Shown: positions 2,499-32,266 of the stretch, one piece after another | How positions within the stretch are numbered: position 1 is the stretch's first letter | Layout of the letters: every line of letters starts with the position of its first letter | From: Bacteroidota bacterium | GTDB taxonomy: Bacteria; Bacteroidota; Bacteroidia; Chitinophagales; Chitinophagaceae | Assembly (NCBI GenBank): GCA_013288445.1 | Contig: JABDBX010000019.1 | Coordinates: 1 to 32,266, forward strand | Length of the DNA: 32,266 bases | Direction: 5' to 3' | The notes under the pieces: generated by a model | Seen by the model: only the letters and a program-made list of their open reading frames with translations | Told to the model about the DNA's origin: nothing | Database searches by the model: none | Program-made: the position numbers and the translations under genes

Positions 2499-5400
2499 TT
2501 ACCGCTCAATAACCATATGGAATACTTTATTTTCTGTTTCGGTACGCAAATTCAATAGATACATACCATTGGCAATGTTACTTCCAAGCTGCACCTGCTC
2601 ATTTATAATACCATTGTGTGCTAAAACCTTCTGATGATAAATTGCCTGCCCGAGTACATCTGTTACCTCCAGCGACACTTCCACATCTGCGCCAACGCTT
2701 GCTACCAGGCTACCCTTCACAGTAAATATACCCTTGTTAGGGTTTGGTATTACCTGTACATCGCTGACGGATGAAGAAACCTGTTGTACTCCCACATTGT
2801 TTCTTACATGTACCGTAACAGCCGCAGACCCCTGTTCGCCAGAACAGCCGCCATTGCTCGTCACCTGGCAGGTAACCACATCAAGATCGCTGAAATCACT
2901 TCCGGTAAATATCTGGGAATTAGCCCCCGGCACCGCATTTCCATTCACAAACCACTGAACCGAAGGCGTAGGCCCAGCGTTGGAAATTGTGGCTGATAAA
3001 GTTAATGTTTGCCCGCTGACAATATTCAATCCGGGGAATGCGCTTATGCTGACCGTTGGCGTACCTGGCACGTCCACCTCCATATGCAAATGATTGCTGG
3101 TTGCCGTTGGAGACAGGCGGCAGCGATAGTCGCTCGTCATCACGCAGGAAATATCGTCACCATTCGCGGGGACATAACTATAAGTGGACGCTGAGCCGAC
3201 CGCTATGCCATTCTTTACCCAACTATATGTTGGCGTAGAACCGCCATATGTTATCGAAGAGGTGTAATTGACGGCTGTCCCCTGGCAAACAATTGTTCCC
3301 GGGTTTGCATAAACAAGGATCGATGGCGCCTGGTTTGCAAATACGGTCATCGTCACATTGCCACTGATCACGGCTGGCGTTGCACAAGCCATGCTGCTCG
3401 TCATTGCCACACCTACAACATCCCCATTACTTGGTACGTAACTGTAAGACGCCCCTGCTGAAACTACAGAACCATTGACGGACCATTCATAGGATGGCGA
3501 TGTTCCGCCATTCACCGGTGCAGGAGTAAATGTTACGGTAGATCCAGAGCAAACCGTGTCCCCCGCCACCGTTGACACTGCAACATAGGTAGGCGCTAAA
3601 GGATTCACGGTTACCACAGCACTGCCGGCCATTGTGTTTGAACAGGCGGTTGACGCATTAGTGGCAATCACCGTATAAGTACCGGGCGCTGTCTGCAATC
3701 CAAGATCAAGAGGGCCGCCAGTGCTTGGCACAGCAACACCCATTGTAGTAAATCCGTTATATAGTTGGTAATGAACACCGGCAGTAGAGTTGTTTACCCC
3801 TACGTGTACACCGATACCACCTGCACAGTAACTACCGCCACCAACAACATTATAAACTGTTGGAGAAGGATTAACCACAATCGTTGCACTCCCGGACATA
3901 TTACCGGCGCAAGACGTTGCCGTATTGGTCGCTATTACCGTATAAGTGCCGGCCGCCGCTTCCGCGCCGAAATCAAGCGGGGAACCGGTTCCGATCAAAG
4001 CGGAACCAACGGCAGTGCCCGAATTGAATAAACTATAAGAAATACCCGTATTAGATCCTCCGAGGCCAACATGAGGACCTGCGCCGCCGGCACAATAGTT
4101 GCCGCCACCGGTAACGCTAAATGAAGACGGGAGCGGGTTGATACTCACCGTTGCAGTACCCGACATATTGTTGGTGCAGGATGTTAAAATATTAATTGCC
4201 ACAACCGTGTAGCTTCCTGCAATTGTTTGCAGACCAAGGTCAACTGCAAAACCAGTGCCACTAACCGGGCTACCAACTAATGTTGTACCCCTCATCAGTT
4301 GATAACTTGTTCCCGGCGTTGAGCCCAGCGTACCTACATGCACACCGGCGCTACCAGAACAGTAATTACCACCGCCTGTTACAGAATAGACCGCAGGGAG
4401 CGGATTAACAGAAACCGGTAGTGTTCCGGCCATATTATTTGTACAACCCGTAGCTACACTCGTTGCAACGACAGTATAAGAACCTGTGATGGTTTGCAGG
4501 CCAAAATCTAAGGCTGCACCTGAGCCTGTTACCGGGCTGCCCGCAAGAGCGCCGGAATTATAAAGCTGGTACGTGACACCAATATTGGAGCCACTCATAC
4601 CAATATGAACGCCTGCACCACCACTACAGTAACCACCGCCGCCAGTGACAGCAAAAACTGGTGGAAGTGGATTAACCGTTATCGGAGCGCTGCCTGCCAT
4701 ACTACGGCTACAGCCTGTAGTTGGGTCAACAGCAACAACAGTATAAGTTCCGCCAGCCGTATGGTCGCCAAAATCAACCGTGCTGCCGGTACCTGAAACC
4801 GGAGCGCCAGCCATCGCACCTACGTTGTACAATTGGTAGCTAACCCCTAACCCTGACCCACCCAATGTAATATCCACACCTGCGCCACCGGCACAATAGT
4901 TAGAAGCCGAACCCGAAACGGTAAACGAAACCGGTAATGGGTTGATCGCTACCGGAATTGTACCGGACATATTTCCTGTACATGTTGTAGATGTATTTGT
5001 GGCCACAATTGTATAGCTGCCTGCGACAGTTTGCAAACCGAAGTCGAGCGCGAAGCCAGTACCGGGAATTGCAGAACCTGCTGGTGCCCCACCGTTAATT
5101 AATTGGTAGGAGATACCCGTACCAGAGCCAGATAAAGTGATGTGTACACCAGTTCCGCCAGCGCAATAATTGCCACCGCCGCCGGCTGAGTAAACTGTTG
5201 GGGCAGGGCTTATCCCAACAACTGCACTACCGGTCATGGTATTGCTGCACGTAGTGCTGGTACTTGACGCCACGATCGTATAAGTTCCTACGCCGGATTC
5301 CGTTCCGAAATCAATTGGTGCGCCGGTACCTGCCAATGGGCTCTCTATCGCCGACCCACTGTTGAACAATTGGTAATTTACACCGGTGGCTGAACCGCTA

Positions 5401-8400
5401 AGCGAAATGTCTGAACCGGCGCCACCGGCACAATAATTACCACCTCCTGTAACTGCGTAAGCATGTGGCAAGGAATTAATTGTTATTGTTTGGCTACCAG
5501 GCATTGTATTCACACACGACGTTGCAGTATTTGTACCAATTACAGTATAAGTACCTGCGGCAAATTGCAAGCCGAAGTCAATAACGGAACCCGTTCCACC
5601 TTCGGGGCTGCCAACCGGCGAAGTGCCTAAGTATAGCTGATAGGTAGTACCAGAGTTAGAACCGTCAAGGCCAATATGCAGGCCAGCGCCGCCTGCGCAA
5701 TAACCGCCGCCACCAATTACTGCATGAGCAACGGGTAAAGGACTGATTGCTATAGTAACGGCGCCTGACATATTACCAGAGCAGGTTGTGGCGGCACTTG
5801 TAGCTACTATCATATAAGTACCGACCACTGTCTGCACACCGAAATCAATAGCAGAGCCAGTGCCTGCTATCGTTAGACCTGTGGCAACACTACTGTTGTA
5901 CAAAGAATAAGTTACGCCGAGGCTGGAACCGCTAAGACCGACATGAAGGCCAGCGCCACCAGGACAATAATTACCACCACCCGTAACGGTGTAGCTGGTA
6001 GGAAGCGGACTGAGGCCAACCGTTACGCTACCAGTCATAGAACCGGTACAACCTGAGCCTGGAGTATGAGCTACGACAGTATAAGATCCAACCGCAGTCT
6101 GCGGCCCAAAACTCAATGGAGCTCCCGTACCGGTTATTGCAGCCCCTACAGGGGTTGCGCCATCATACAATTGGTAGCTAATGCCGGCATCTGAGCCGTT
6201 AATGCCTACAGCAATACCCGTGCCACCTGGGCAATAATTCCCGCCGCCTGTTACTATATGTGGCGTTGGTAAAGTATTTACTGTCACAGAGGCAATACCG
6301 GTCATAGTATTTGTGCAACCTGTAGTAGTGTTTGTAGCAACAACGGTGTAAGAACCGCCAATAGTTTGCAAACCAAAGTCAATGGCGATACCCGTACCGG
6401 CTACCGGTACGCCGGCTGGCGTGCTGCCAGCATATAACTGGTAATTTACACCGATTGCAGAACCGCTAAGCCCAACATGAACGCCAGACCCACCGCTGCA
6501 GAAATTGCCACCACCCGTAATCGTGTAAAGACCGGGAAGCAGATTAATATTTATCGAAGGACTGCCCGACATAGTATTTGTACAGCCCGTTGCAGGATTC
6601 GTTGCCAAAACAGTGTATGTTCCCGAAGCAGTTTGTGCACCAAAATCAGCAGCGGAGCCAACGCCCAGCACTGAATCGCCAGTTACTGGTGCAGTGCCAT
6701 TGTAAAGTTGGTATTTCACGCCAATAGCAGATCCGCTCAGGCCAATATGGACACCTGTGCCACCCGCACAATAGTTACCACCACCTGTTGTTGGGAATGC
6801 AACGGGTAATGGAGTAATCCCGATTGTTGCACTGCCCGTCATGACATTCGTACAACCCGAAGTTCCGGCAGTCGCCAAAACATTGTAAGTACCCGCAGCA
6901 GTTTGTGACCCAAACCCGATTGCCGAACCTGTACCAGTTACAGCGCTCCCAACAGCAGTAGTGCCGAGGTACAATTGATAATTCACACCGGTTGCAGAAT
7001 TAAGCAGGCTAACAGGCATACCCGTACCGCCCGCACAATAATTACCACCACCACTAACCGGATAGGCCAATGGCAAACCGCTAACACTTACAGTTGCGCT
7101 GCCAGACATAGTGGTTGTACAGGAAGTAGATGTGTTAGTGGCAATCACTGTGTAAGTCCCCGTAGCCGTTTCTGCGCCAAAGTCGAGCGCCGTCCCCGTA
7201 CCGCTAACAGGACCTCCAATGGCGCTGCCATTAAATAACTGGTAGTTTACGCCTATATCAGAAGCGCCCAGGCCAATATGAACACCGGTTGTCCCGGTAC
7301 AATATCCGCCTCCGCCAGTTACCAGGTAACCAGTCGGTAATGGAAGTATGCCTACAGTTGCAGTACCTGTCATATTGCTGCTGCAACCCGTGGTGGTGTT
7401 AGTTGCAACTATGGTGTAAGCACCTGCTGTAGGTGTTGCTCCAAAACTGATTGGGCTGCCTGTACCTGTTACCGCAGAACCGGTAGCTACGCCTGTTTTG
7501 AATAGCTGGTAGCTAATGCCATTCGTGGAACCGCTCAAGCCAATTGCAGGCGCTGTTGCACCGCTGCAATAATTGCCACCACCTGAAACTGGGAACACAG
7601 CAGGCAACGCGTTTACAGTCACGATAACATTGCCCGTCATGGTTGCCTGGCAAAGTGTAGCAGTGTTTACGCCAACGACCGTATAAGTGCCACCCGCAAG
7701 CATGGCGCCAAAATCAATAGGCGCACCAAGCCCTGGGGCTGCGCTGGCCAATGATGTGCCATTATATAAAAAGTAATTGACACCGGAAACAGACCCACCG
7801 AGCGTAATGTGTACGCCGCTGCCGCCTGCGCAATAACTTGTTGCGCTGCTGCCAATTGCAAAAGCCGTAGGTAACGGATTGATAGCAACCGAGGCGCTGC
7901 CAAACAGATTTATTGTGCAGCCAGTAGTTGGGTTTGTAGCCACCACCGTATAAGCGCCCGCAGTCGTAAACGATGAACCGAAACTGATTGCCGAACCTGT
8001 ACCAGGCGCAGCCGAACCCAAAGTAGATGTGCCTATGTACAATTGATAATTAACGCCGGTCTGCGATGCATTTAAACCAACGCCTACACCCGTACCTCCT
8101 GCACAATAAGAGCCACCGCCAGTAACAGTAAAGACCGAGGGAAGCGGGTTAACCGAAACAGTTATAGCACCCGTCATATTATTGGTGCAACCTGTAGAAG
8201 TATTCGTTGCAATTACGGTATAAGAACCCGCTGCGGTTTGGGCACCAAAACTGACTGCGCTACCTGTGCCGGAAACCGGCGCACCAACTGCCGAACCGCC
8301 AAGATATAGCTGGTAACTAATGCCTGTAGCAGAAGTAAATAAACCTACAGCCAGACCGGTACCACCTGCGCAATAGCTACCGCCACCAGACATAGTAACC

Positions 8401-11400
8401 GGCGTGGGCAATGGATTTGTAGTTACCGTTACACTCCCTGTCATAGAACCTATACAACCGGTTGCCGGGTTGGTACCGGTAATTGTGTAGGTACCTAATG
8501 ACGTTTGCAAACCAAAGTCGAGAATTGTGCCGGTGCCCGGAACTGAAGTACCAGCAATAGTGGAACCGTTAAACAATTGGTAGTTAATACCCGTTGTAGA
8601 ATTACTTAGGGAAACATGAACGCCCGAACCACCGCTGCAAAATGTGCCGCCACCCGATTCCACATAAGCCGTGGGTAATGGGTTAACGGTTACAGCAGCG
8701 CTGCCAGACATGGTGATGGCGCATCCGGTGGATACGTTGGTTGCAATAACCGAATAAGAACCACCTAAAGTTTCCGGGCCGAAATCAAATGCTCCGCCTG
8801 TACCGGCTACCGCAGCGCCAACTGTTGTACCAGCGTTATAAAGCTGGTAGCTGATACCCGTGTTTGAAAAGCCCATCCCGATATGTACGCCTGTGCCACC
8901 AGCACAATAACTGCCACCACCGGAAATAGAATACACCGTTGGGAATGCATTTACAGTAACGGTAACGCTACCGGTCATATTATTACCACACGAGGTAATG
9001 GTCCTTGTTCCCACGACTGAATAGGAACCCGCGCCTGAACGTAATCCAAAATCAATTGCGGCTCCGGTACCGGCAACCGAACTGCCGCTTGCAGATGTAC
9101 CTATAAATAATTGATAACTCACACCTGTGTCAGACCCACTTAAACCAATGTGAACCCCGGAACCCCCAGTGCAATAACCACCACCACCAGTAACCGTATA
9201 GGCCGTGGGTAGGGCATTTACCGTAAGTACAGCAGTAGATGAACAACCAGTTGACAGGCTGTAACTGATAACGGGATTACCACCCGAAACGCCTGTAACC
9301 ACACCACCAGTGCCAACTGTAGCAATAGCGGTGCTGCCACTACTCCAGGCGCCACCGGTAGTTGTATTGGACAACAAGGCTGTCGCTCCCTGGCAAAGTA
9401 TCATTGTACCTGTAATTGAAGCAGGAGAAGCATTCACTGTTACCGGCTTAATTATGTAACAGCCTGTTGCAAGTGTATAAGTAATTGTATCTGATCCCAG
9501 CGCAACACCATTCACAATACCCGACGCGGACCCAATTGTGGTCACCGAAGTATTACTGCTGCTCCATGCCCCGCCGCTTATAGCATCGCTCAGTGTAGTT
9601 GACGCGCCTACGCAAACGTTCATAGTGCTGCTGATCGTGGAAGGTAAAGGATTCACCGTAGTTACAATGGTAGCAATACATCCGGTTGGTAACGTATAAG
9701 TAATAACCGGGTTGCCCGACGCAACACCTGAAACTGTACCGGAACTGGTACCTACAGTTGCCAATGAGGTATTGCTGCTTGTCCATGACCCGCCAGACGA
9801 AGCATCGGTTAATGTTGTTGTCAAACCAACACAAACGTTAAGGGTTCCGCTAATGGAAGATGGTAAACTATTCACCGTTACTGGCGTTGATATCATACAG
9901 CCAGTAGGTAAAACAAAAGTAATGACCGGAACTCCCGCTGCAATGCCCGAAACAATCCCCGAGCCAGAACCGATAGTCGCAAATGAAGTATTGCTGCTGC
10001 TCCAGGTACCTGTGCCTGAAGCATCATTTAGCGTTGTTGTTGAGCCGATGCAGACATTTGTAGTCCCTGATATAGCAGCAGGCAACGGATTCACAGTAAC
10101 AGGTATCGTGGCGATACAACCCACCGCTGATGTATATGTTATAGAGGGTGTGCCAGCAGATGCACCGGTTACAACGCCCGTAGCTGAACCGACTGTGGCC
10201 ATTGAAACATTACTGCTGCTCCAGGTGCCGCTGCCGGTATCGCTCAATGTTGTTGTCGCTGCAACACATACATTTAAGGTGCCGGCTATTGCAGCAGGCA
10301 CCGGATTTACAGTAACCTTAGCAGTTGTAAAGCAACCTGTGCTCACCATGTAAGTTATTGCAGCCGCACCTACAGCTACGCCAGTTGCAACACCGGAGGT
10401 AGAACCTACAGTTGCAATAGTCATATCGCTGCTGCTCCATGTGCCGCCTGTTGTAGCGCTGCCTAAAGTGCTGGTAAATCCTACGCACACATTTGCACTA
10501 CCAGTTATGGAAGATGGTGAGGGATTAACGCTTACAACAGCCGTTGACGTTGAAGTACATGCACCATTCGCTGCGGTAACTGTATAAGTAGATGTTGCTG
10601 ATGGCAATGCATAGACCGGATTTGCAGCGCTACCTGTATAGGCGGTAGTAGCTGCCGAATCTGTATAAAGACCGGTAGCAGATGACCACGTTGTTGCGGC
10701 TGGCGTTGTATAATTAATAGTCAATGACCACGAACCGATGGCTGATGATCCAGATGTAAATGTGTATGCGCCAAGCAGATTCCAGGTCCCGTTAAGCGAA
10801 CCTGTACTGAACAATGAACTCCATGTTGTGCTATCTGAGGCATAACCCGTAGCGCCCGTACCCAGCACGGTATCGCCTGCGTAGGTACCGGTATATGGTG
10901 CGCCTGTAGCAGGTATCGGGGTTGTACCCGCCGAGCTGATCGTTGTGTTCACAAAACCCTGGGTACTGCCACTGCCGCCTTTTAAGCTTACGAGATTCAG
11001 TATGTGGCTATTCGCACCTTCCAGATTGTAAATATTATCAGCGTCCCACCCACCACTAAACTGCGATGCATTGAAGGTTACAGAGATACCGGTTATCGTT
11101 GCATTGGTAGGAATGCCGCTCACAGTAACAGGAGAAATACCCTCCACACTCGGCCCGAAAGTTGTAACGCTGGTCGTAGAAAATGTTGCAGAACTTGCAA
11201 CGGCGCCACCTGTGGCGGTGAGCTTTGCAGCAGGGCCGGAAGAACATATGGTAGATGATGCAGGAGAAACGGCTACTGAAGAAGGAGTATTCAATGAATT
11301 AACGGTTGCCAATGCAATATTTGTACAGGTACCGTTAAAGAAAGAATACGATATGGTAGCACTGCCTACGCTAACAGGACTAACTATACCTGTAGAACCT

Positions 11401-14400
11401 ATCGTGGCAACGGCTGGAGCACCAGAGGTCCAGCTGCCGCCAGATGTAGCATCCGTCAGATTAATTGTAGTGCCACTGCACACAGTTCCTGGGCCTGCTA
11501 TGGCCGCAACAGTTGGCAATCCGTTCACAGCAATTGTCTTCGTTGCAAAACCAGAGCAGGAACCACTGTTATAAGTATAGGTAATATTTGGAGTACCCGC
11601 TGCAACGCCGGTAACAGCGCCTGTAGCCGATGCTACGGTAGCTAAAGCTGTATTGCTGCTTGTCCATACCCCTCCGACTATTGAATCAGCTAAAATAATT
11701 ACAGACCCGGCGCATACACTTGATGAACCAGTTACTACCGGAACATAGAGGGTTGAATTTACGTCAACATTCACATTGGCAGAATTGGTGCAGGCGCCAT
11801 TTGTAGCAGTGACCGTATAAGTAATAGTCGCCGAAGGTTTTGCATACACCGTGTCTGTCAAAGATCCGGTATAGGCTGTTGTAGCGCCAGTATTAGTATA
11901 TAATCCTGTAGCAGATGACCATGTCACCGATGCCTGGTAATTATAAAATATAGTTATTGACCACGAGGTAAGTGTTGCGGTGTTGCCGCTGAAATTCGTC
12001 CTGCCCACCAACGTCCAGGTGCCATTAGGGTTGGCTGCCTCAAGCGCTCCCCACGTGGATGTCGTTGGCGGAGTTGTAGAAGAACCTACCGTTGGGCTGA
12101 TCGAGGCATTGGCAGCCCATGTACCTGTCCATGGGAAACCAGGGCCGGCGTTAGGGATTGGAGTTGAGCCTGCCGAACTGATCGTTGTATTTACAAAATT
12201 TGCCCCACTATTGCTGGTGCCAGAACTGAACAAATTAATAACGCTGGTATTTGGCGCTTTCAGGTTTAGTTCCAGGTCCCCGTCAAATGATTCAGTAGCA
12301 TTATAATTTACAGATATTCCCGTCACTGTTGCTCCGGTAGGCACTCCGCTTACTGTGAGCGAGTTAGTAACGCCGCCCGCTGTGTTTGGAATAGAGAACG
12401 AAATAGTTCCTGATGCCGCTGTTGAAGACCCTGGTATAATACCACCTGATGCAACCAGCATCTGTGCAGAACTGGAAGGGCACAAACTGGCAAGCAAAGG
12501 AGAAACAGAAACAGATGTAGGTGAATTAGCTACAGTCAATGTAGTGGTAGTAGTGTTACTACATACCCCATTATTATAAGTATAAGTGATCACTGATGTG
12601 CCGGCAGTTACCCCAGTTACTGTACCGGATGAAGAGCCAATTGTAGCCACTGCTGTATTACTGCTGCTCCAGGAAGTTGTTCCTGTCGTTGCATCGGTAA
12701 GTGTCGCGGTTGGCGATGCGCTTAAACACAGATTAGTAGTACCGGTAATTGCTGATACTGTTGGCAGGGCATTGACCGTAATAGCTTTTGTAGCGAATCC
12801 TGAACATGACCCACTTGTATAAGTATAAGTAATGTTAGGGCTACCTGCTGCTACCCCGGTAACGACACCCGAAGAGGAGCCTACTGTAGCCAATGCAGTA
12901 TTGCTGCTCGTCCATACACCGCCGGTCGTAGAATCCGTTAATGCGATAGTTGTAGCAGGGCAAAGATTGTTAGCGCCGGTTATTACAGGAACATACAAAG
13001 TAGAGTTTACGGTGACCGGAACGGTAGCTGTCCTGGAACAGGAGCCAATAGTTGCCGTAGCAGTATAAGATGTTGAAGAAGTCGGCAGCGCATATACCGA
13101 ACTGGCAGAAGCGCCGGTATAAGCAGTTGTAGCGCCCGAATTGGTATATAACCCAGTCACGGATGACCACGCAACTGTTGGATTGATCACATAGTTAATG
13201 GTAACAGACCAGCTTTTCAGCGTGTCTTCGGTAGCATTAAAGGTATTGTCTGTGATCAAAGTCCATTGGCCATTTGGGGCCGAGGACAAAATAGATGACC
13301 ATACCGTTGTATTTGAACGGTAAGATGTTGGGGTAAACGCAGCTGAGGTAGGCGCTCCTGAAACCAAACTGGCGATGTAGGAAACACCGGAAGTCAGGGC
13401 AGTTGTTGACATTGCAACGGTACCGGCAGAACTGAAACTAACATTTGCAAATCCAAGTCCCGCTACTGAACTTCCCTTACCGTTATCTAAGTTAATAATA
13501 CTTCCGTTAGGCGCTCTGAGGTTATAAATATTGTCCCTCTGCTCTCCCGATGATTTCGCTGTAACGTTTATAGCAACAGAAATGCTTGTAACAACAGCAC
13601 CCGAAGGTATCCCGGATACTGATACAGAACTTGTATCGGCAGTATTCTCAGGCTCCACAAAAGTAGTAGTGTTGTTTGTCATTGTTACAGACCCGATAAT
13701 AGTATCGCCAACTGCCGTGATCAATTGAGCAGGGCTGCTCGGGCAAAGACTTACCAACGCAGGAGTGATAGTAAATGAAGGTGGCGCTATATTAACAGTC
13801 ACAGGGAAAATTGCTGAGTTTGCACCGCAGGTATTTGTAACAGAATATATAATAGTATCCACACCGGACGCAACACCAGTTACAATACCCGATGCGCTGT
13901 TTATTGTAGCAAATGATGTATTGCTGCTGCTCCAAACCCCGCCGGTTACGGTATCGCTAAGTGTGTTCGTCCCGCCTATACATGCATTTGACGACCCTGT
14001 TATAACACCGGCTGAGGTAGCGTTAACCGTCACCACCTTGGTAGCGATACAGCCCGTTGGTAATGTATAGGTAATAACCGGAGTACCGAAAGCCACCCCC
14101 GATACAATACCTGATGAAGAACCTACCGTAGCCTTGGTAATATCGCTGCTGCTCCACGTACCGCTTCCACCGTCACTTAAAGTAGTGGTTGCGGCCACGC
14201 ATACGTTGGCAGTCCCTGTTATGGAAGACGGCAATGGGTTTACCGTAACTATTGCTGTTGTCGAAGTGTTCCCACAGCTATTGGTAGCCGTATAGCTTAT
14301 TGTCACTGTATTTGAAAATACCCCTGTCACTGTGCCTGATGTCCCAACTGTTGCTATTGTGCCGTCCCCGCTACTCCACGCGCCACCGGCAGTTGCATCG

Positions 14401-17400
14401 CCAAGTGTGGTTGTGCTGCCTACGCAAACGCTCAAAGTACCCGTTATAGAAGATGGTGTCGCAGGAACAGTATTCACCGTCACAATGGCTGTTGCAGATG
14501 CATTCCCACAACTATTTGAGGCGGTATAGCTTATGGTTGCAGTACCGGTAGCTACCCCTGTTACAATACCAGATGTACCTACAGTTGCCGTAGCAGTAGC
14601 GCCACTGGTCCATGCCCCACCTGTTGTTCCGTCATTCAAAGTCGTTGTGCTTCCTATGCATACATTCAAAGTGCCGGTAATGGACGCTGGTGTGGCCGGT
14701 AGCGGATTGACCGTTACAATTGCCGTTGCCGCCGCGCTCCCGCAGCCATTAGTATTGGTGTAACTGATTGTTGTTGTTCCTGCTGATATCCCTGTTACAA
14801 TCCCTGTCGTGCCTACCGTGCCGGTACCTGTCGTAACGCTACTCCATGTACCACCCGTTGATGTCTCGCCCAATGAAGTTGTACTTCCTGCACAAACATT
14901 TAAAGTACCCGTTATAGACGCGGGCGTCGCTGGTAATGGATTTACGGTTACAATAACGGATGCCGCCGCACTGCCGCAACTATTGGTATTTGTATAGCTA
15001 ACAGTAGTGGTGCCCGCCGATATACCGGCTACGATACCAGTTGTACCTACAGTGCCTGTAGCAGTTGTAACACTGCTCCAAGTACCACCGGTTGACGTTT
15101 CATTCAAAGTCGTGGTGCTTCCGGCGCATACATTTAGTGTTCCTGTTATAGACGCCGGTGTTGTTGGTAATGGATTTACAGTTACGATTGCTGTGCCAGA
15201 AGTATTGCCGCAGCCGTTGGTCAATGTATAGCTAATTGTGGCTGTCCCAGAAGATGCGCCGCTAACTATACCTGTTGAGCCAACTGTTGCAACGGACGTT
15301 GAGCCACTGCTCCATGCCCCTCCCGATGTTGTGTTGCCAAGGGTAGTTGTACTGGCCACACAAACCGTCAAAGTACCTGTTATTGACGCCGGAGCTGCCG
15401 GTACTGTATTCACAGTTACTGGAGCCGTCACAAAACCGCATGGCAATGTATATGTGATATTTACCGTGCCGCTGGCTACGCCGCTTACTATCCCGTTTGC
15501 CGAACCAACAGTTGCAGTAGCCGTATTGCTGCTGGTCCATACGCCGCCAGTTGCGGTGTTGCTCAGAGTTGTTGTTGAACCGGTACATACATTTGTAGTT
15601 CCGGTAATAGTTGCCGGTACTGGGTTAACGGTAACCGTGGCGCTTCCTGACAATGTCACCGATGAACAAGCTGTTGTGGATATGCTCAACAGGTTATAGG
15701 TGGTATTTGCTGTCAGTGTACCGGTACTCAAAACCACTTTGCCATTGACGCCAATAGTTGCCGTTGTTGTTGAACCGCCATTAATATTATAAGATACAGT
15801 TGCAGTCGGATTACCGGTTATCGTCACAGATGTTCCGGTACCACTGCATATAGAAGATGAACCTGATACCGCTATACTTGCAAAGCAGGAAGGCGAAAAC
15901 TGCACTGCACGGAACACCGTATTCGTCGGAGCAGTTGCAATAGTAGAAGAAGAAGATCCGGAACCTGCGTCCGTTATTTTTGTTATTGTTGTACCGGTCG
16001 CCGGTGTAGCATAGATCACTGGGCTTGAACCAGAGTAATCTACTGCTATGCCTCTAACCGGCGTTGCATTTACCGTATAGGCAAATGCATAGGAACCACC
16101 GCTAAGTGTATATTTGAGCAACCCTGCTGCATCGTCCGCAATATACATAATAGTGCTGTCCGGACTGATGGAGAAGCCATAAGCGCTGCCCGCATCAGTG
16201 GTATTGATTTCGGTCGCTGTCTGGCCACTCGTGGTGGGTATTCCTGTTCCCATGGTCATTACTCCCTTGTAGGGCGAGCTGGATGCTGAAAAATAAAGCT
16301 GGCCGTTAAATATCTGCGCTACCCTGGTGTTGGTGGGCGCCGTTGAAAGCGCAGTACTGCTGTTAAGATATTGTATGCCGCTTGGTGTGCCAGCGCTAAA
16401 AAAATTGGAGCCGGAAGCAGTGCCTGAACGGATATTGTTGGCAGAATAGGCCGAAGTTGAAGACGCGCCAAGAGAATAAGTGCCCGCTGAATTTATTGCA
16501 AATAACTCCCTGGGAACAGTAGCGGAAGAAGTGCCTGCAATGCTGGCTGTGCCTGCAACTGCATTATATCCTTCAATAACCAGCCGGTCCCTTTCAGCGG
16601 ACATAGTCATCTGGCCTTCTGATGTTGCCGAGCCGCTCATGGTAATAGGCGGAACACCGGAAACCGTTGTTGTAGGAAGCGCCACACTAAACCCTGTTGC
16701 AGAGCCTGATGTAGAATACTCGATCGCAAATATTGGCGCACTCGTGCCCGACAAAGTACCCGAGCCATCACCTGCACGCAAAACAACTATATTGCCTCTA
16801 GTAAAGGTTGGAGAAGCAACAGTTACGGACACCGTTGCAGCAAGCGTGCCACAACCATTGGTAACGGTATAAGATATAATAGTTGAACCTACGGCAACAC
16901 TGGTAACAAGACCCGCCGTGCCCACAGTAGCCACAGAAGTATTCGTGCTGCTCCAGCTACCGCCGGATGAACCATCAGACAATGATGTCGTACCTCCTAA
17001 CGTAACTGTTGTCGTTCCTGTTATTGTGCCGGGAACCGGTAGCGGATTGACCGTTACGGAGACAGAAGCTGTACTACTACAGCCCGAAGTAGTACCGGTT
17101 ACCGTATAGGTTGTTGTTGAAGTTGGGTTAGCAGTCACACTTGTTCCGGTAGTGGCAGACAACCCGGTCGATGGCGACCATGAATAAGTTGTGCCACCTG
17201 ACGCGCTGAGGCTGGTTGACGAACCGGCGCAAATGCTCACCCCGGAACCTGCGCTAATGGAAGGTATTGAATTTACCGTTACCGCCACCGTGGCAACATT
17301 GCTGCAACCAGAGGTGGTACCGGTCACGGTATATATAATTGTACTTGATGGATTAGCGCTAACACTTGTTCCCGTAGTTGCTGATAACCCCGTTGATGGA

Positions 17401-19505
17401 GACCAGGAATAAGTGGCACCGCCAGACGCGGTAAGCGTGGTGGACGAACCGGCGCAAATAGCCACACCCGATCCGGCCCCTACAGATGGTATTGAATTTA
17501 CCGTTACCGCAACAATGGCTGTATTACTGCAACCCGTCGTTGTTCCGGTTACAGTATAAGTAGTTGTTGACGATGGGTTAGCCGTAACACTCGTTCCTGT
17601 AGTTGCTGATAACCCAGTTGATGGCAGCCAGGAATAAGTGGTGCCACCTGATGCCGTAAGCGTAGTAGGCGAACCGGAGCAAATAGCTATTCCTGAACCT
17701 GCGCTTACCGTTGGCAGGGCTGTTACCGTGACAGTAACAGTCGCCACATTACTACAACCTGAGCCTATTCCCGTAACGGTATAAGTGGTTGTGGACGATG
17801 GATTGGCGCTAACGCTGCTACCAACTGTTGATGATAACCCGGTTGATGGAGACCATGAATAGGTATCTCCGCCTGACGCCGTAAGTGTTGTAGATGAACC
17901 GGCGCATATAGCTACACTAGCACCACCACCGATCGTTGGCAATGCATTTACACTTACAGTTACCGTACCTGTGTTGCTGCAACCGGCAGACGACGTTCCG
18001 GTTACTGTGTAGGCAGTGGTGGATGTTGGATTGGCGGTAACACTCGTGCCGGTTGTTGCGGATAGCGCAGTTGATGGCGACCACGAATAAGTTACTCCGC
18101 CAGATGCTGTAAGCATCGTAGAGGAGCCGGAACAAATAGCCACTCCCGAACCTCCGCTGATTGTTGGTATTGAATTTACACTTACTGTTACGGTTGAAGT
18201 GTTGCTGCAGCTACTCGCATTTGTTCCGGTTACCGTATAGGTCGTGGTTGATGTTGGATTGGCAGTAACGCTTGTTCCCGTCGTCGCGGATAACCCGGTT
18301 GACGGCGACCAGGAATAGGTAACACCGCCCGAAGCCGTGAGTGTAGTAGAAGATCCGGAACATATGCCCACATTGGAACCGCCGCTTATTGTTGGTGAAG
18401 AATTTACAGTTACAGTAACGGTAGCAGTATTACTGCATCCCGATGTTGTGCCTGTTACCGTATAGGTAGTAGTTGATGATGGATTAGCTGTAACACTTGT
18501 GCCTGTTGTTGCAGATAACCCAGTGGACGGGGACCATGAATACGTGGTGCCACCTGAGCCGGTTAACGTTGTGGACGAACCAGAGCATATAGCAACGCCA
18601 CTTCCACCGCTTATGGTAGGTATAGCATTAACCGTAACCGATACTGTAGATGCACCTACGCAGATACCGCTCGTTCCCGTTATAGTATAGGTAGTCGCTG
18701 ATGATGGATTGGCTGTAACGCTTGACCCTGTCGTAGCAGACAAGCCTGTTGAAGGAGACCAGGTATATGTAGTGCCACCTGTAGCCGTAAGGGTAGTAGA
18801 AGAACCAGTGCATATCCCAACTCCGGACCCTCCGCTGATCAAAAAACCGGGCGAAGACGCGCTATTCCTCGGGCTGGGGCTTACTGCGGAAAAATCAGAG
18901 CTGTTGTTACCGGCATTTGTACAGCCAGATCCAGCCCTCAGTTCGGCAGTTGTGTTTGATGGTGCCGGGGCAACGGCTGTAAGAAAGGTATTCCCGGTAC
19001 CATATCCTATAAAATCAATAATACCGTATGTTGACATTGTGCCGCTTGACAAAGCTCCCGTGCCTAACGCTGAAGTAAGAGCAGTAGTAGTATTTAACAA
19101 AGCTACCTTCCCGGTTGTGGCGCTCATATTAATAGAGCCCGTAGCATCAGGTGTAGGCAATGAAGTTGCCGTGCCCGTACCCGCCGCTTCCTGTATAAGG
19201 AAATACTGCCCTGGAGCCACGGAGCCCGAAAGCGTTGTAACCTGCCAGGTAGTTCCGGAAGATGATGCATACTGAACCGACCAGCCCGACAAAGACACGG
19301 AAGTGGTACCCGGGTTAAATATCTCTATAAAGTCATTCGTATAAGGAGCGCCTGAGTTACCTCCGCCGCCATAAACCTGGCTTAACACAAGTGTTTGCGC
19401 GGAAATACTACCGGGCGCCACCAATGATAAAACAGCAATACAAACGGAGAGAAATGATTTAACAACTAGCGGCTTGACTGACTTTAAAGATAACGTTCTT
19501 GACAT
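2499..19505 (-). CDS. Giant (5,668 aa) T9SS-secreted multi-repeat adhesin-like protein: lamin-tail domain, PKD/Ig repeats, propeller-like domain, BIG2-like arrays, P-domain-like modules, 21x GGGxYC repeats, type A C-terminal sorting domain
   Basis: Uninterrupted 17-kb ORF. N-terminal signal peptide MSRTLSLKSVKPLVVKSFLSVCIAVLSLVAPGSISAQ; LTD signature LVLSQVYGGGGNSGAPYTNDFIEIFNPG; C-terminal VIPNPNKGIFTVKGS...VTDVLGQAIYHQKV...NIANGMYLLNLRTETENKVFHMVIER typical of a T9SS type A sorting domain. Confidence 0.95.
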   Translation of the reverse strand: MSRTLSLKSVKPLVVKSFLSVCIAVLSLVAPGSISAQTLVLSQVYGGGGNSGAPYTNDFIEIFNPGTTSVSLSGWSVQYASSSGTTWQVTTLSGSVAPGQYFLIQEAAGTGTATSLPTPDATGSINMSATTGKVALLNTTTALTSALGTGALSSGTMSTYGIIDFIGYGTGNTFLTAVAPAPSNTTAELRAGSGCTNAGNNSSDFSAVSPSPRNSASSPGFLISGGSGVGICTGSSTTLTATGGTTYTWSPSTGLSATTGSSVTANPSSATTYTITGTSGICVGASTVSVTVNAIPTISGGSGVAICSGSSTTLTGSGGTTYSWSPSTGLSATTGTSVTANPSSTTTYTVTGTTSGCSNTATVTVTVNSSPTISGGSNVGICSGSSTTLTASGGVTYSWSPSTGLSATTGTSVTANPTSTTTYTVTGTNASSCSNTSTVTVSVNSIPTISGGSGVAICSGSSTMLTASGGVTYSWSPSTALSATTGTSVTANPTSTTAYTVTGTSSAGCSNTGTVTVSVNALPTIGGGASVAICAGSSTTLTASGGDTYSWSPSTGLSSTVGSSVSANPSSTTTYTVTGIGSGCSNVATVTVTVTALPTVSAGSGIAICSGSPTTLTASGGTTYSWLPSTGLSATTGTSVTANPSSTTTYTVTGTTTGCSNTAIVAVTVNSIPSVGAGSGVAICAGSSTTLTASGGATYSWSPSTGLSATTGTSVSANPSSTIIYTVTGTTSGCSNVATVAVTVNSIPSISAGSGVSICAGSSTSLSASGGTTYSWSPSTGLSATTGTSVTANPTSTTTYTVTGTTSGCSSTASVSVTVNPLPVPGTITGTTTVTLGGTTSLSDGSSGGSWSSTNTSVATVGTAGLVTSVAVGSTIISYTVTNGCGTLAATVSVTVASPTFTRGNIVVLRAGDGSGTLSGTSAPIFAIEYSTSGSATGFSVALPTTTVSGVPPITMSGSATSEGQMTMSAERDRLVIEGYNAVAGTASIAGTSSATVPRELFAINSAGTYSLGASSTSAYSANNIRSGTASGSNFFSAGTPSGIQYLNSSTALSTAPTNTRVAQIFNGQLYFSASSSPYKGVMTMGTGIPTTSGQTATEINTTDAGSAYGFSISPDSTIMYIADDAAGLLKYTLSGGSYAFAYTVNATPVRGIAVDYSGSSPVIYATPATGTTITKITDAGSGSSSSTIATAPTNTVFRAVQFSPSCFASIAVSGSSSICSGTGTSVTITGNPTATVSYNINGGSTTTATIGVNGKVVLSTGTLTANTTYNLLSISTTACSSVTLSGSATVTVNPVPATITGTTNVCTGSTTTLSNTATGGVWTSSNTATATVGSANGIVSGVASGTVNITYTLPCGFVTAPVTVNTVPAAPASITGTLTVCVASTTTLGNTTSGGAWSSGSTSVATVGSTGIVSGASSGTATISYTLTNGCGNTSGTAIVTVNPLPTTPASITGTLNVCAGSTTTLNETSTGGTWSSVTTATGTVGTTGIVAGISAGTTTVSYTNTNSCGSAAASVIVTVNPLPATPASITGTLNVCAGSTTSLGETSTGGTWSSVTTGTGTVGTTGIVTGISAGTTTISYTNTNGCGSAAATAIVTVNPLPATPASITGTLNVCIGSTTTLNDGTTGGAWTSGATATATVGTSGIVTGVATGTATISYTASNSCGNASATAIVTVNTVPATPSSITGTLSVCVGSTTTLGDATAGGAWSSGDGTIATVGTSGTVTGVFSNTVTISYTATNSCGNTSTTAIVTVNPLPSSITGTANVCVAATTTLSDGGSGTWSSSDITKATVGSSSGIVSGVAFGTPVITYTLPTGCIATKVVTVNATSAGVITGSSNACIGGTNTLSDTVTGGVWSSSNTSFATINSASGIVTGVASGVDTIIYSVTNTCGANSAIFPVTVNIAPPSFTITPALVSLCPSSPAQLITAVGDTIIGSVTMTNNTTTFVEPENTADTSSVSVSGIPSGAVVTSISVAINVTAKSSGEQRDNIYNLRAPNGSIINLDNGKGSSVAGLGFANVSFSSAGTVAMSTTALTSGVSYIASLVSGAPTSAAFTPTSYRSNTTVWSSILSSAPNGQWTLITDNTFNATEDTLKSWSVTINYVINPTVAWSSVTGLYTNSGATTAYTGASASSVYALPTSSTSYTATATIGSCSRTATVPVTVNSTLYVPVITGANNLCPATTIALTDSTTGGVWTSSNTALATVGSSSGVVTGVAAGSPNITYTYTSGSCSGFATKAITVNALPTVSAITGTTNLCLSASPTATLTDATTGTTSWSSSNTAVATIGSSSGTVTGVTAGTSVITYTYNNGVCSNTTTTTLTVANSPTSVSVSPLLASLCPSSSAQMLVASGGIIPGSSTAASGTISFSIPNTAGGVTNSLTVSGVPTGATVTGISVNYNATESFDGDLELNLKAPNTSVINLFSSGTSNSGANFVNTTISSAGSTPIPNAGPGFPWTGTWAANASISPTVGSSTTPPTTSTWGALEAANPNGTWTLVGRTNFSGNTATLTSWSITIFYNYQASVTWSSATGLYTNTGATTAYTGSLTDTVYAKPSATITYTVTATNGACTNSANVNVDVNSTLYVPVVTGSSSVCAGSVIILADSIVGGVWTSSNTALATVASATGAVTGVAAGTPNITYTYNSGSCSGFATKTIAVNGLPTVAAIAGPGTVCSGTTINLTDATSGGSWTSGAPAVATIGSTGIVSPVSVGSATISYSFFNGTCTNIALATVNSLNTPSSVAVSPASSTICSSGPAAKLTATGGAVASSATFSTTSVTTFGPSVEGISPVTVSGIPTNATITGISVTFNASQFSGGWDADNIYNLEGANSHILNLVSLKGGSGSTQGFVNTTISSAGTTPIPATGAPYTGTYAGDTVLGTGATGYASDSTTWSSLFSTGSLNGTWNLLGAYTFTSGSSAIGSWSLTINYTTPAATTWSSATGLYTDSAATTAYTGSAANPVYALPSATSTYTVTAANGACTSTSTAVVSVNPSPSSITGSANVCVGFTSTLGSATTGGTWSSSDMTIATVGSTSGVATGVAVGAAAITYMVSTGCFTTAKVTVNPVPAAIAGTLNVCVAATTTLSDTGSGTWSSSNVSMATVGSATGVVTGASAGTPSITYTSAVGCIATIPVTVNPLPAAISGTTNVCIGSTTTLNDASGTGTWSSSNTSFATIGSGSGIVSGIAAGVPVITFVLPTGCMISTPVTVNSLPSSISGTLNVCVGLTTTLTDASSGGSWTSSNTSLATVGTSSGTVSGVASGNPVITYTLPTGCIATIVTTVNPLPSTISSTMNVCVGASTTLSDAISGGAWSSSNTSVTTIGSASGIVNGVALGSDTITYTLATGCYIIKPVTVNASPASITGTMILCQGATALLSNTTTGGAWSSGSTAIATVGTGGVVTGVSGGNPVISYSLSTGCSSTAVLTVNALPTAYTVTGGGGYCTGGSGVHIGLSGSDTGVSYQLFIGTSASGSSVAGTGAAIDFGLRSGAGSYSVVGTRTITSCGNNMTGSVTVTVNAFPTVYSISGGGSYCAGGTGVHIGMGFSNTGISYQLYNAGTTVGAAVAGTGGAFDFGPETLGGSYSVIATNVSTGCAITMSGSAAVTVNPLPTAYVESGGGTFCSGGSGVHVSLSNSTTGINYQLFNGSTIAGTSVPGTGTILDFGLQTSLGTYTITGTNPATGCIGSMTGSVTVTTNPLPTPVTMSGGGSYCAGGTGLAVGLFTSATGISYQLYLGGSAVGAPVSGTGSAVSFGAQTAAGSYTVIATNTSTGCTNNMTGAITVSVNPLPSVFTVTGGGSYCAGGTGVGVGLNASQTGVNYQLYIGTSTLGSAAPGTGSAISFGSSFTTAGAYTVVATNPTTGCTINLFGSASVAINPLPTAFAIGSSATSYCAGGSGVHITLGGSVSGVNYFLYNGTSLASAAPGLGAPIDFGAMLAGGTYTVVGVNTATLCQATMTGNVIVTVNALPAVFPVSGGGNYCSGATAPAIGLSGSTNGISYQLFKTGVATGSAVTGTGSPISFGATPTAGAYTIVATNTTTGCSSNMTGTATVGILPLPTGYLVTGGGGYCTGTTGVHIGLGASDIGVNYQLFNGSAIGGPVSGTGTALDFGAETATGTYTVIATNTSTSCTTTMSGSATVSVSGLPLAYPVSGGGNYCAGGTGMPVSLLNSATGVNYQLYLGTTAVGSAVTGTGSAIGFGSQTAAGTYNVLATAGTSGCTNVMTGSATIGITPLPVAFPTTGGGNYCAGGTGVHIGLSGSAIGVKYQLYNGTAPVTGDSVLGVGSAADFGAQTASGTYTVLATNPATGCTNTMSGSPSININLLPGLYTITGGGNFCSGGSGVHVGLSGSAIGVNYQLYAGSTPAGVPVAGTGIAIDFGLQTIGGSYTVVATNTTTGCTNTMTGIASVTVNTLPTPHIVTGGGNYCPGGTGIAVGINGSDAGISYQLYDGATPVGAAITGTGAPLSFGPQTAVGSYTVVAHTPGSGCTGSMTGSVTVGLSPLPTSYTVTGGGNYCPGGAGLHVGLSGSSLGVTYSLYNSSVATGLTIAGTGSAIDFGVQTVVGTYMIVATSAATTCSGNMSGAVTIAISPLPVAHAVIGGGGYCAGGAGLHIGLDGSNSGTTYQLYLGTSPVGSPEGGTGSVIDFGLQFAAGTYTVIGTNTATSCVNTMPGSQTITINSLPHAYAVTGGGNYCAGGAGSDISLSGSATGVNYQLFNSGSAIESPLAGTGAPIDFGTESGVGTYTIVASSTSTTCSNTMTGSAVVGISPAPTVYSAGGGGNYCAGGTGVHITLSGSGTGISYQLINGGAPAGSAIPGTGFALDFGLQTVAGSYTIVATNTSTTCTGNMSGTIPVAINPLPVSFTVSGSASNYCAGGAGVDITLGGSGLGVSYQLYNVGAMAGAPVSGTGSTVDFGDHTAGGTYTVVAVDPTTGCSRSMAGSAPITVNPLPPVFAVTGGGGYCSGGAGVHIGMSGSNIGVTYQLYNSGALAGSPVTGSGAALDFGLQTITGSYTVVATSVATGCTNNMAGTLPVSVNPLPAVYSVTGGGNYCSGSAGVHVGTLGSTPGTSYQLMRGTTLVGSPVSGTGFAVDLGLQTIAGSYTVVAINILTSCTNNMSGTATVSINPLPSSFSVTGGGNYCAGGAGPHVGLGGSNTGISYSLFNSGTAVGSALIGTGSPLDFGAEAAAGTYTVIATNTATSCAGNMSGSATIVVNPSPTVYNVVGGGSYCAGGIGVHVGVNNSTAGVHYQLYNGFTTMGVAVPSTGGPLDLGLQTAPGTYTVIATNASTACSNTMAGSAVVTVNPLAPTYVAVSTVAGDTVCSGSTVTFTPAPVNGGTSPSYEWSVNGSVVSAGASYSYVPSNGDVVGVAMTSSMACATPAVISGNVTMTVFANQAPSILVYANPGTIVCQGTAVNYTSSITYGGSTPTYSWVKNGIAVGSASTYSYVPANGDDISCVMTSDYRCRLSPTATSNHLHMEVDVPGTPTVSISAFPGLNIVSGQTLTLSATISNAGPTPSVQWFVNGNAVPGANSQIFTGSDFSDLDVVTCQVTSNGGCSGEQGSAAVTVHVRNNVGVQQVSSSVSDVQVIPNPNKGIFTVKGSLVASVGADVEVSLEVTDVLGQAIYHQKVLAHNGIINEQVQLGSNIANGMYLLNLRTETENKVFHMVIER
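3600..9230 (-). repeat. 21 tandem ~267-bp coding repeats (~89 aa each, GGGxYCxGGxGxHIGLxGSxxGVxYQLYxG...GTGxxxDFGxQTxxGTYTVVATNxxTGCxxxMxGxxxVxVNPLP)
   Basis: The YC-codon motif recurs on the + strand near 3830, 4091, 4356, 4624, 4891, 5161, 5428, 5695, 5962, 6230, 6497, 6767, 7034, 7298, 7564, 7827, 8101, 8370, 8635, 8901, 9170 (spacing about 261-274 bp). Confidence 0.9.
10520..13780 (-). repeat. Three copies of a compound unit (Cys-Ig strand + P-domain-like module + WSSATGLYTNTGATTAYTG module), two followed by TLYVPV-type BIG2-like modules
   Basis: P-domain-like stretches near 13190-13720, 11935-12390 and 10700-11240, e.g. VSGVPTGATVTGISVNYNATESFDGDLELNLKAPNTSVINLFSSG...GTWTLVGRTNFSGNTATLTSWSITIFY; TLYVPV modules recur at about 12990 and 11740. 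Confidence 0.75.
17040..18850 (-). repeat. 8 tandem ~225-bp coding repeats (PKD/Ig-like, SGGSGVxICSGSSTTLTASGGTTYSWSPSTGLSATTGTSVTANPSSTTTYTVTGTTSGCSNTATVTVTVNxxPTI)
   Basis: Eight near-identical units counted in the translated giant ORF directly after the lamin-tail domain; boundaries approximate. Confidence 0.9.
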
Positions 19506-31300: not shown

Positions 31301-31336
31301 GATCCCTCAAAAAACCGACTTGGCTTTTTGAGGGAT
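31301..31336 (-). terminator. Hairpin terminator downstream of the right-end Ig-repeat gene
   Basis: gatccctcaaaaaaccgacttggctttttgagggatc: 13-bp perfect outer arms GATCCCTCAAAAA/TTTTTGAGGGATC plus CC/GG near the loop; 19 bp past the stop of the minus-strand gene ending at 31355. Confidence 0.75.
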
Positions 31337-31354
31337 CACCGGGTTCTTTAAAAA

Positions 31355-32011
31355 TTAATGACAGGCAAACGGTATCACCACAGGATTCACCGTAAAGCTG
31401 GCTACATTGCCGCTTGATAAAGCGCTGATACAACCCGTAGTCGTGTTCTTAATCGAATTGATCGTTACTATAGTAATGCCCGGAGAACCAATCGGAGCAC
31501 TGGTTAAAAAGCTGGCTGATGGACCGGTAAACGCCAATGGAGCAGCAATTGCAATTCCCGACGACGTGTTAGCACCGCTTATAGTGTAGCTTATGGTGTA
31601 AGTTGCCGATGGCAGTGTTGTGGAACTGAAATGCACTACCTCAAATCCGCCTGCATACATATAGGGGGTCGATGTGCTGAACATACTTACATTAGGGCCA
31701 GCATCAACCGTTACCGTTACAAAGCTGGAACAGCCGCCAGATAAGCTATATTCTATCACTGCCGTTCCCTGTGCAACTCCCGTCCAGGAACCAGATGATG
31801 GATCCACCGTGGCTATCGCTGTATTGCTGCTGCTGAATGTACCGCCACCCGTAGCAGGGTGAAGCGTAGTTGACGCGCCGGGGCACTCCTCTGTTGTGCC
31901 GGTAAGCGATGCGCCACCTGCACCAACGACTACGGGTGTAGTATAGGCTGTAGTTGATAAACAACCCGATCCGCCCGTACTTACCGTTACCGAATATACT
32001 GCCGTACTGTA
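31355..32011 (-). CDS. 3' fragment of an Ig-like repeat protein, N-terminus missing at a strand-flip junction
   Basis: Coherent minus-strand reading STAVYSVTVSTGGSGCLSTTAYTTPVVVGAGGASLTGTTEECPGASTTLHPATGGGTFSSSNTAIATVDPSSGSWTGVAQGTAVIEYSLSGGC...ASFTVNPVVIPFACH*. The ORF-track start at 31807 is an internal GTG; the frame continues upstream, loses Ig-like character past about 32011 and meets a stop near 32097. Confidence 0.75.
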   Translation of the reverse strand, partial: YSTAVYSVTVSTGGSGCLSTTAYTTPVVVGAGGASLTGTTEECPGASTTLHPATGGGTFSSSNTAIATVDPSSGSWTGVAQGTAVIEYSLSGGCSSFVTVTVDAGPNVSMFSTSTPYMYAGGFEVVHFSSTTLPSATYTISYTISGANTSSGIAIAAPLAFTGPSASFLTSAPIGSPGITIVTINSIKNTTTGCISALSSGNVASFTVNPVVIPFACH

Positions 32012-32266
32012 GCGGCAAGCAGCCTTGTAGGCGGCACTGCTCCATATTCTGTGGTATATGGCCTCAGCGGTGCAAATACAACCGGAGGATCGGCTTCAAT
32101 GGATGGAAGCGGTGTATTCACTATACCGTCAGGTTCGCTTGCAGGTGTAGGCGTTACAACCGTAACGGTAACATCGGTATTCTATACCTCGGGTACAATG
32201 TGCAGCACCCCGGTTACGACCACCAATACGGCAGGCTTCACGGTTAAGCCTGACGCAACACTTGCC
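32012..32266 (+). CDS. Internal fragment of an Ig-like repeat protein on the opposite strand, open at the right window edge, no start codon or signal peptide
   Basis: 85 codons open to the window end: AASSLVGGTAPYSVVYGLSGANTTGGSASMDGSGVFTIPSGSLAGVGVTTVTVTSVFYTSGTMCSTPVTTTNTAGFTVKPDATLA. Frame differs from the ORF-track call 31954..32247. Confidence 0.7.

Follow-up and report, generated by a model that had tools for sequence, protein, structure and literature searches.

An apparent strand flip within an Ig-repeat gene at a contig end is very probably a fold-back amplification chimera

The window, by which we mean the whole 32,266-nucleotide stretch analysed here, is an entire contig (C19) of an assembly of 215 contigs with an estimated completeness of 65.2%, and its coding sequence changes strand about 260 bases short of the contig end (Table 1). 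On the left, the minus strand from around position 32007 encodes the C-terminal part of an Ig-like repeat protein, which runs to a stop at 31355 and gives a weak match to Big_2, below the cut-off. On the right, from around position 32005 up to the contig end at 32266, the plus strand codes for an internal stretch of a gene of the same type, in inverted orientation. Both pieces have homologous counterparts in paralogues elsewhere in the genome, confirming that the strand flip described in the first-pass annotation is present in the sequence. The same annotation had reported that neither side of the flip carries a start codon or a signal peptide, and this agrees with the paralogues, in which both pieces are internal. 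A terminator-like hairpin (31301-31337), whose arms of 16 are 94% complementary, follows shortly after the stop at 31355.

Table 1 Features at the strand flip, in its paralogues and at other contig or gap edges of the assembly
Feature	Contig	Position	Strand	Remarks
C-terminal part of Ig-like repeat protein, 217 aa + stop	C19	31355..32007	-	76% nt identity to C196:1002-1651, 71% to C74:9454-10118
Internal stretch of an Ig-repeat gene of the same type, inverted, reaching the contig end	C19	32005..32266	+	83% nt identity to C74:8786-9046
Junction, TAC microhomology common to left and right homology blocks	C19	32005..32007	.	C74 alignment, query positions 708 and 706
Imperfect palindrome gccgtactgtagcggc	C19	32001-32016	.	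16-mer flagged by the first-pass annotation
409-base segment	C74	9045-9453
409-base segment	C196	593-1001
10-N gap followed by 53-nt inverted repeat	C74	10204-10266		Perfect inverted copy of 5700-5752
Inverted repeat at edge, 89 nt	C113			Perfect
Inverted repeat at edge, 62 nt	C138			Perfect
Inverted repeat at edge, 38 nt	C158			Perfect
Fold-back arms, 2273 nt	C139	1-2273 and 5199-7471		Perfect inverted copies at contig ends, 2.9 kb between
Fold-back arms, 1549 nt	C148	1-1549 and 4907-6455		Perfect inverted copies at contig ends, 3.4 kb between

Two paralogous genes in the same assembly show a collinear arrangement of these blocks. In C74, the homologues of both pieces lie on one strand within a single 3169-residue frame, with the right-piece homologue upstream of the left-piece homologue. 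The block order is identical in a 549-residue open frame of C196, with 73% identity over the end of the right piece. The interior and C-terminal blocks are separated in both paralogues by a 409-base segment, whose copies in C74 and C196 share 93% identity, whereas the adjoining blocks are only 63% and 70% identical. Such near-identity between diverged flanks suggests gene conversion or shared selection. The window does not contain this segment: the start of the C-terminal block abuts the start of the interior block head to head, so that the second block is inverted relative to both paralogues, in which the two blocks share a strand. Thus, the proposal that the two sides belong to "one family or even one gene" is borne out by the paralogue comparison as far as the family is concerned; the two sides probably also come from one gene.

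A search of the incomplete assembly for further copies of the blocks, or for a reciprocal junction, found none. Nor was the right-hand piece assembled anywhere in collinear form: the head-to-head join is its sole assembled version in a genome that is 65% complete. Among the genomes of named species, which possibly leave out the window's own genome, we found neither relatives of the C196 protein nor an exact match to a 30-mer of the window. Genus-wide DNA and protein searches gave matches that were short or approximately 50% identical, all of them to the common Ig-like domain, and therefore provided no close orthologue revealing the true layout of the gene.

The two homology blocks overlap slightly at the junction. 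In the alignment with C74, the left block extends to 32007 and the right block is matched from 32005 onwards, leaving an overlap of three bases, TAC, which was deduced by way of the paralogues and not from the sequence of the true gene. In the alignment with C196, the left block can be traced to 32013 with a one-base gap, indicating that both sides share up to approximately 10 similar bases. The coding strands begin alike on the left and the right (GTACGGC and GTAGCGGC, respectively), and the imperfect palindrome arises because these similar starts are joined head to head. The first-pass annotation had stated that the breakpoint coincides with a hairpin: the 16-mer is indeed located there, but nothing sets it apart as a hairpin, since the DNA fold of 31990-32030 has a z-score of -0.69 (52 of 200 shuffles fold equally well or better) and 62 sites in the window can form hairpins of at least 7 pairs with loops of 3-6. 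The copies of the 16-mer that the annotation had proposed to look for were not found either, as the genome holds no second copy with up to 2 mismatches. The hairpin was considered as a recombination site and rejected, as its fold energy is ordinary and it is single-copy.

We then considered whether the flip reflects a genuine inversion, of the kind that underlies phase or antigenic variation. Invertible phase-variation loci in Bacteroidota combine a tyrosine or serine recombinase with flanking inverted repeats. The window resembles these loci in that a surface-type repeat protein is affected and a segment lies in the opposite orientation. Moreover, inverting a segment of approximately 0.67 kb, composed of the right block and the 409-base segment, within the adhesin-like gene would yield the same order as observed, with the left block on the minus strand, the right block on the plus strand and the contig end at the start of the 409-base segment. 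The lack of an assembled collinear copy of the right block also fits an inversion, the near-identical segment amid otherwise diverged paralogues suggests that some gene conversion has taken place, and the missing reciprocal junction carries little weight given the incomplete assembly. However, the segment is not flanked by inverted repeats: none was found at its two ends, where the boundaries in the paralogues match over only a few bases in inverted orientation, and the 16-mer is single-copy as described above. The nearby recombinase that the annotation had suggested searching for did not turn up, as matches to PF00589 and PF00239 (tyrosine and serine recombinases, respectively) are absent from C19, C74 and C196 and present on other contigs only, which leaves room for an enzyme acting in trans. 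In addition, both C74 and C196 are uninverted, the flip is located only at a contig end, and a mutY-like housekeeping gene is affected by the same flaw, as shown below. Taken together, an inverting segment that generates phase or antigenic variation is very improbable, and we give equally little credence to the version in which a trans-acting recombinase or a microhomology-driven event in the living cell inverts 0.67 kb in the 3' region of the Ig-repeat surface protein gene, thereby swapping or turning off the C-terminal part.

Similar junctions occur at unrelated places in the assembly. We scanned 121 contigs or contig parts (1.05 Mb) for perfect self-inverted pairs of at least 36 nt, and found 10 pairs, approximately 8 of them distinct. 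In six of the pairs, an arm terminated precisely at a contig end or at the edge of an N-gap, as compared with approximately 0.01 edge-aligned cases expected by chance (our own calculation, with 287 edges in 1.05 Mb). One of these cases, in C74, lies behind the paralogous Ig gene itself, where the sequence beyond the gap is an inverted copy from inside that gene. The two longest repeats occupy both ends of their contigs. C139 contains an intact adenine-glycosylase (MutY-like) gene and, 2.9 kb further on, a folded-back copy that breaks off at residue 182; at 5198/5199 this copy adjoins a PDDEXK_2 gene, which is itself cut at that point. The inverted ends of C139 and C148 are likely to be fold-back chimeras. 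Phase variation cannot account for this pattern, because a housekeeping repair gene, which encodes no antigen, is also affected.

The assembly carries signatures of the procedure by which it was produced. Perfect direct repeats, exactly 95 bases long, border three 100-N gaps and point to a de Bruijn assembly with k = 95 by SPAdes. The shortest contig has 2523 bases, in keeping with the usual 2.5-kb cut of a binning program. A JGI protocol for sorted soil cells amplified by multiple displacement amplification (MDA) employs SPAdes with the options -sc -k 25,55,95, followed by binning with MetaBAT2 (PMC7065516). From these signatures, we infer that MDA was used to prepare the DNA of this genome. 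Inverted joins make up 85% of the chimeras formed during MDA, most of them link segments separated by less than 10 kb, and in 76.8% of the chimeras the junction shows a complementarity of at least 2 bp (Lasken and Stockwell 2007, PMC1855051). The junction in the window agrees with all three traits, as it is inverted, has at least 2 complementary bases (TAC), and would join segments within 10 kb, provided that the layout of the gene matches that of C74, where the block starts are 668 bases apart. It further resembles the published chimeras in that the DNA between the joined segments is skipped and several such joins occur in one assembly. It differs from them in that the join is known from an assembled contig, whereas theirs were identified in raw reads, and in that the amplification is itself deduced here. 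That the contig ends where the 409-base segment starts was set aside as support for a chimera, since the matching protocol trims 200 bases off contig ends (PMC7065516).

A misjoin by the assembler that involved no chimeric molecule would look much the same at this single site: short inverted similarity between near-identical paralogues could have caused pieces to be linked in the wrong orientation. The paralogues have the 409-base segment at 93% identity in common, the contig stops where this segment begins, and repeats of this kind are sites of assembly breaks and misjoins. However, the similarity at the junction, approximately 3-10 bases, falls far short of the 95-base k-mer, and a join in the assembly graph would therefore require a read that already contained the junction. 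In addition, the fold-backs of C139 and C148 extend over 1.5-2.3 kb and lie in unrelated genes, which indicates chimeric molecules. An assembly error of this kind is thus an unlikely source of the flip.

The collinear paralogues, the position at a contig end, the three-base microhomology and the like flaws elsewhere in the assembly all argue for an inverted (fold-back) chimera that arose during MDA and was retained by the assembler at the end of C19, and we consider this to be very probably the correct explanation. Among the three readings originally put forward, the fold-back amplification chimera is therefore favoured, with the assembly folding back at contig ends and gap edges in unrelated genes as well, and the DNA inversion is disfavoured by the lack of flanking repeats, of a further 16-mer copy and of a local recombinase. 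Accepting the chimera, a phi29 product strand growing towards the 5' end of the gene would have halted near the start of the C-terminal block, and its displaced 3' end would have annealed to the opposite displaced strand through a few bases (TAC), at a point in the gene approximately 0.66 kb further upstream. Extension from the annealed 3' end would then have run back in the opposite direction. The true gene would be collinear on the minus strand of the window, with the interior block, the 409-base segment and the C-terminal block in this order, and its N-terminal part would be among the sequences missing from the incomplete assembly. Judging from the sequence, the minus-strand piece represents the end of the gene and keeps the true orientation, and the plus-strand piece is almost certainly a chimeric tail. 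The flip thus exists in the sequence and almost certainly not in the organism.

Had the inversion been real, the gene would have been a switchable adhesin. Contigs assembled from amplified low-input DNA may bear fold-back tails that mimic gene inversions, and these tails mislead above all in genes for repeat proteins, where assemblies end. The minus strand of the window also carries a single open frame of 5668 residues with many similar repeats (2499-19505), the C-terminal end of which, by eye, resembles a secretion-sorting tail.
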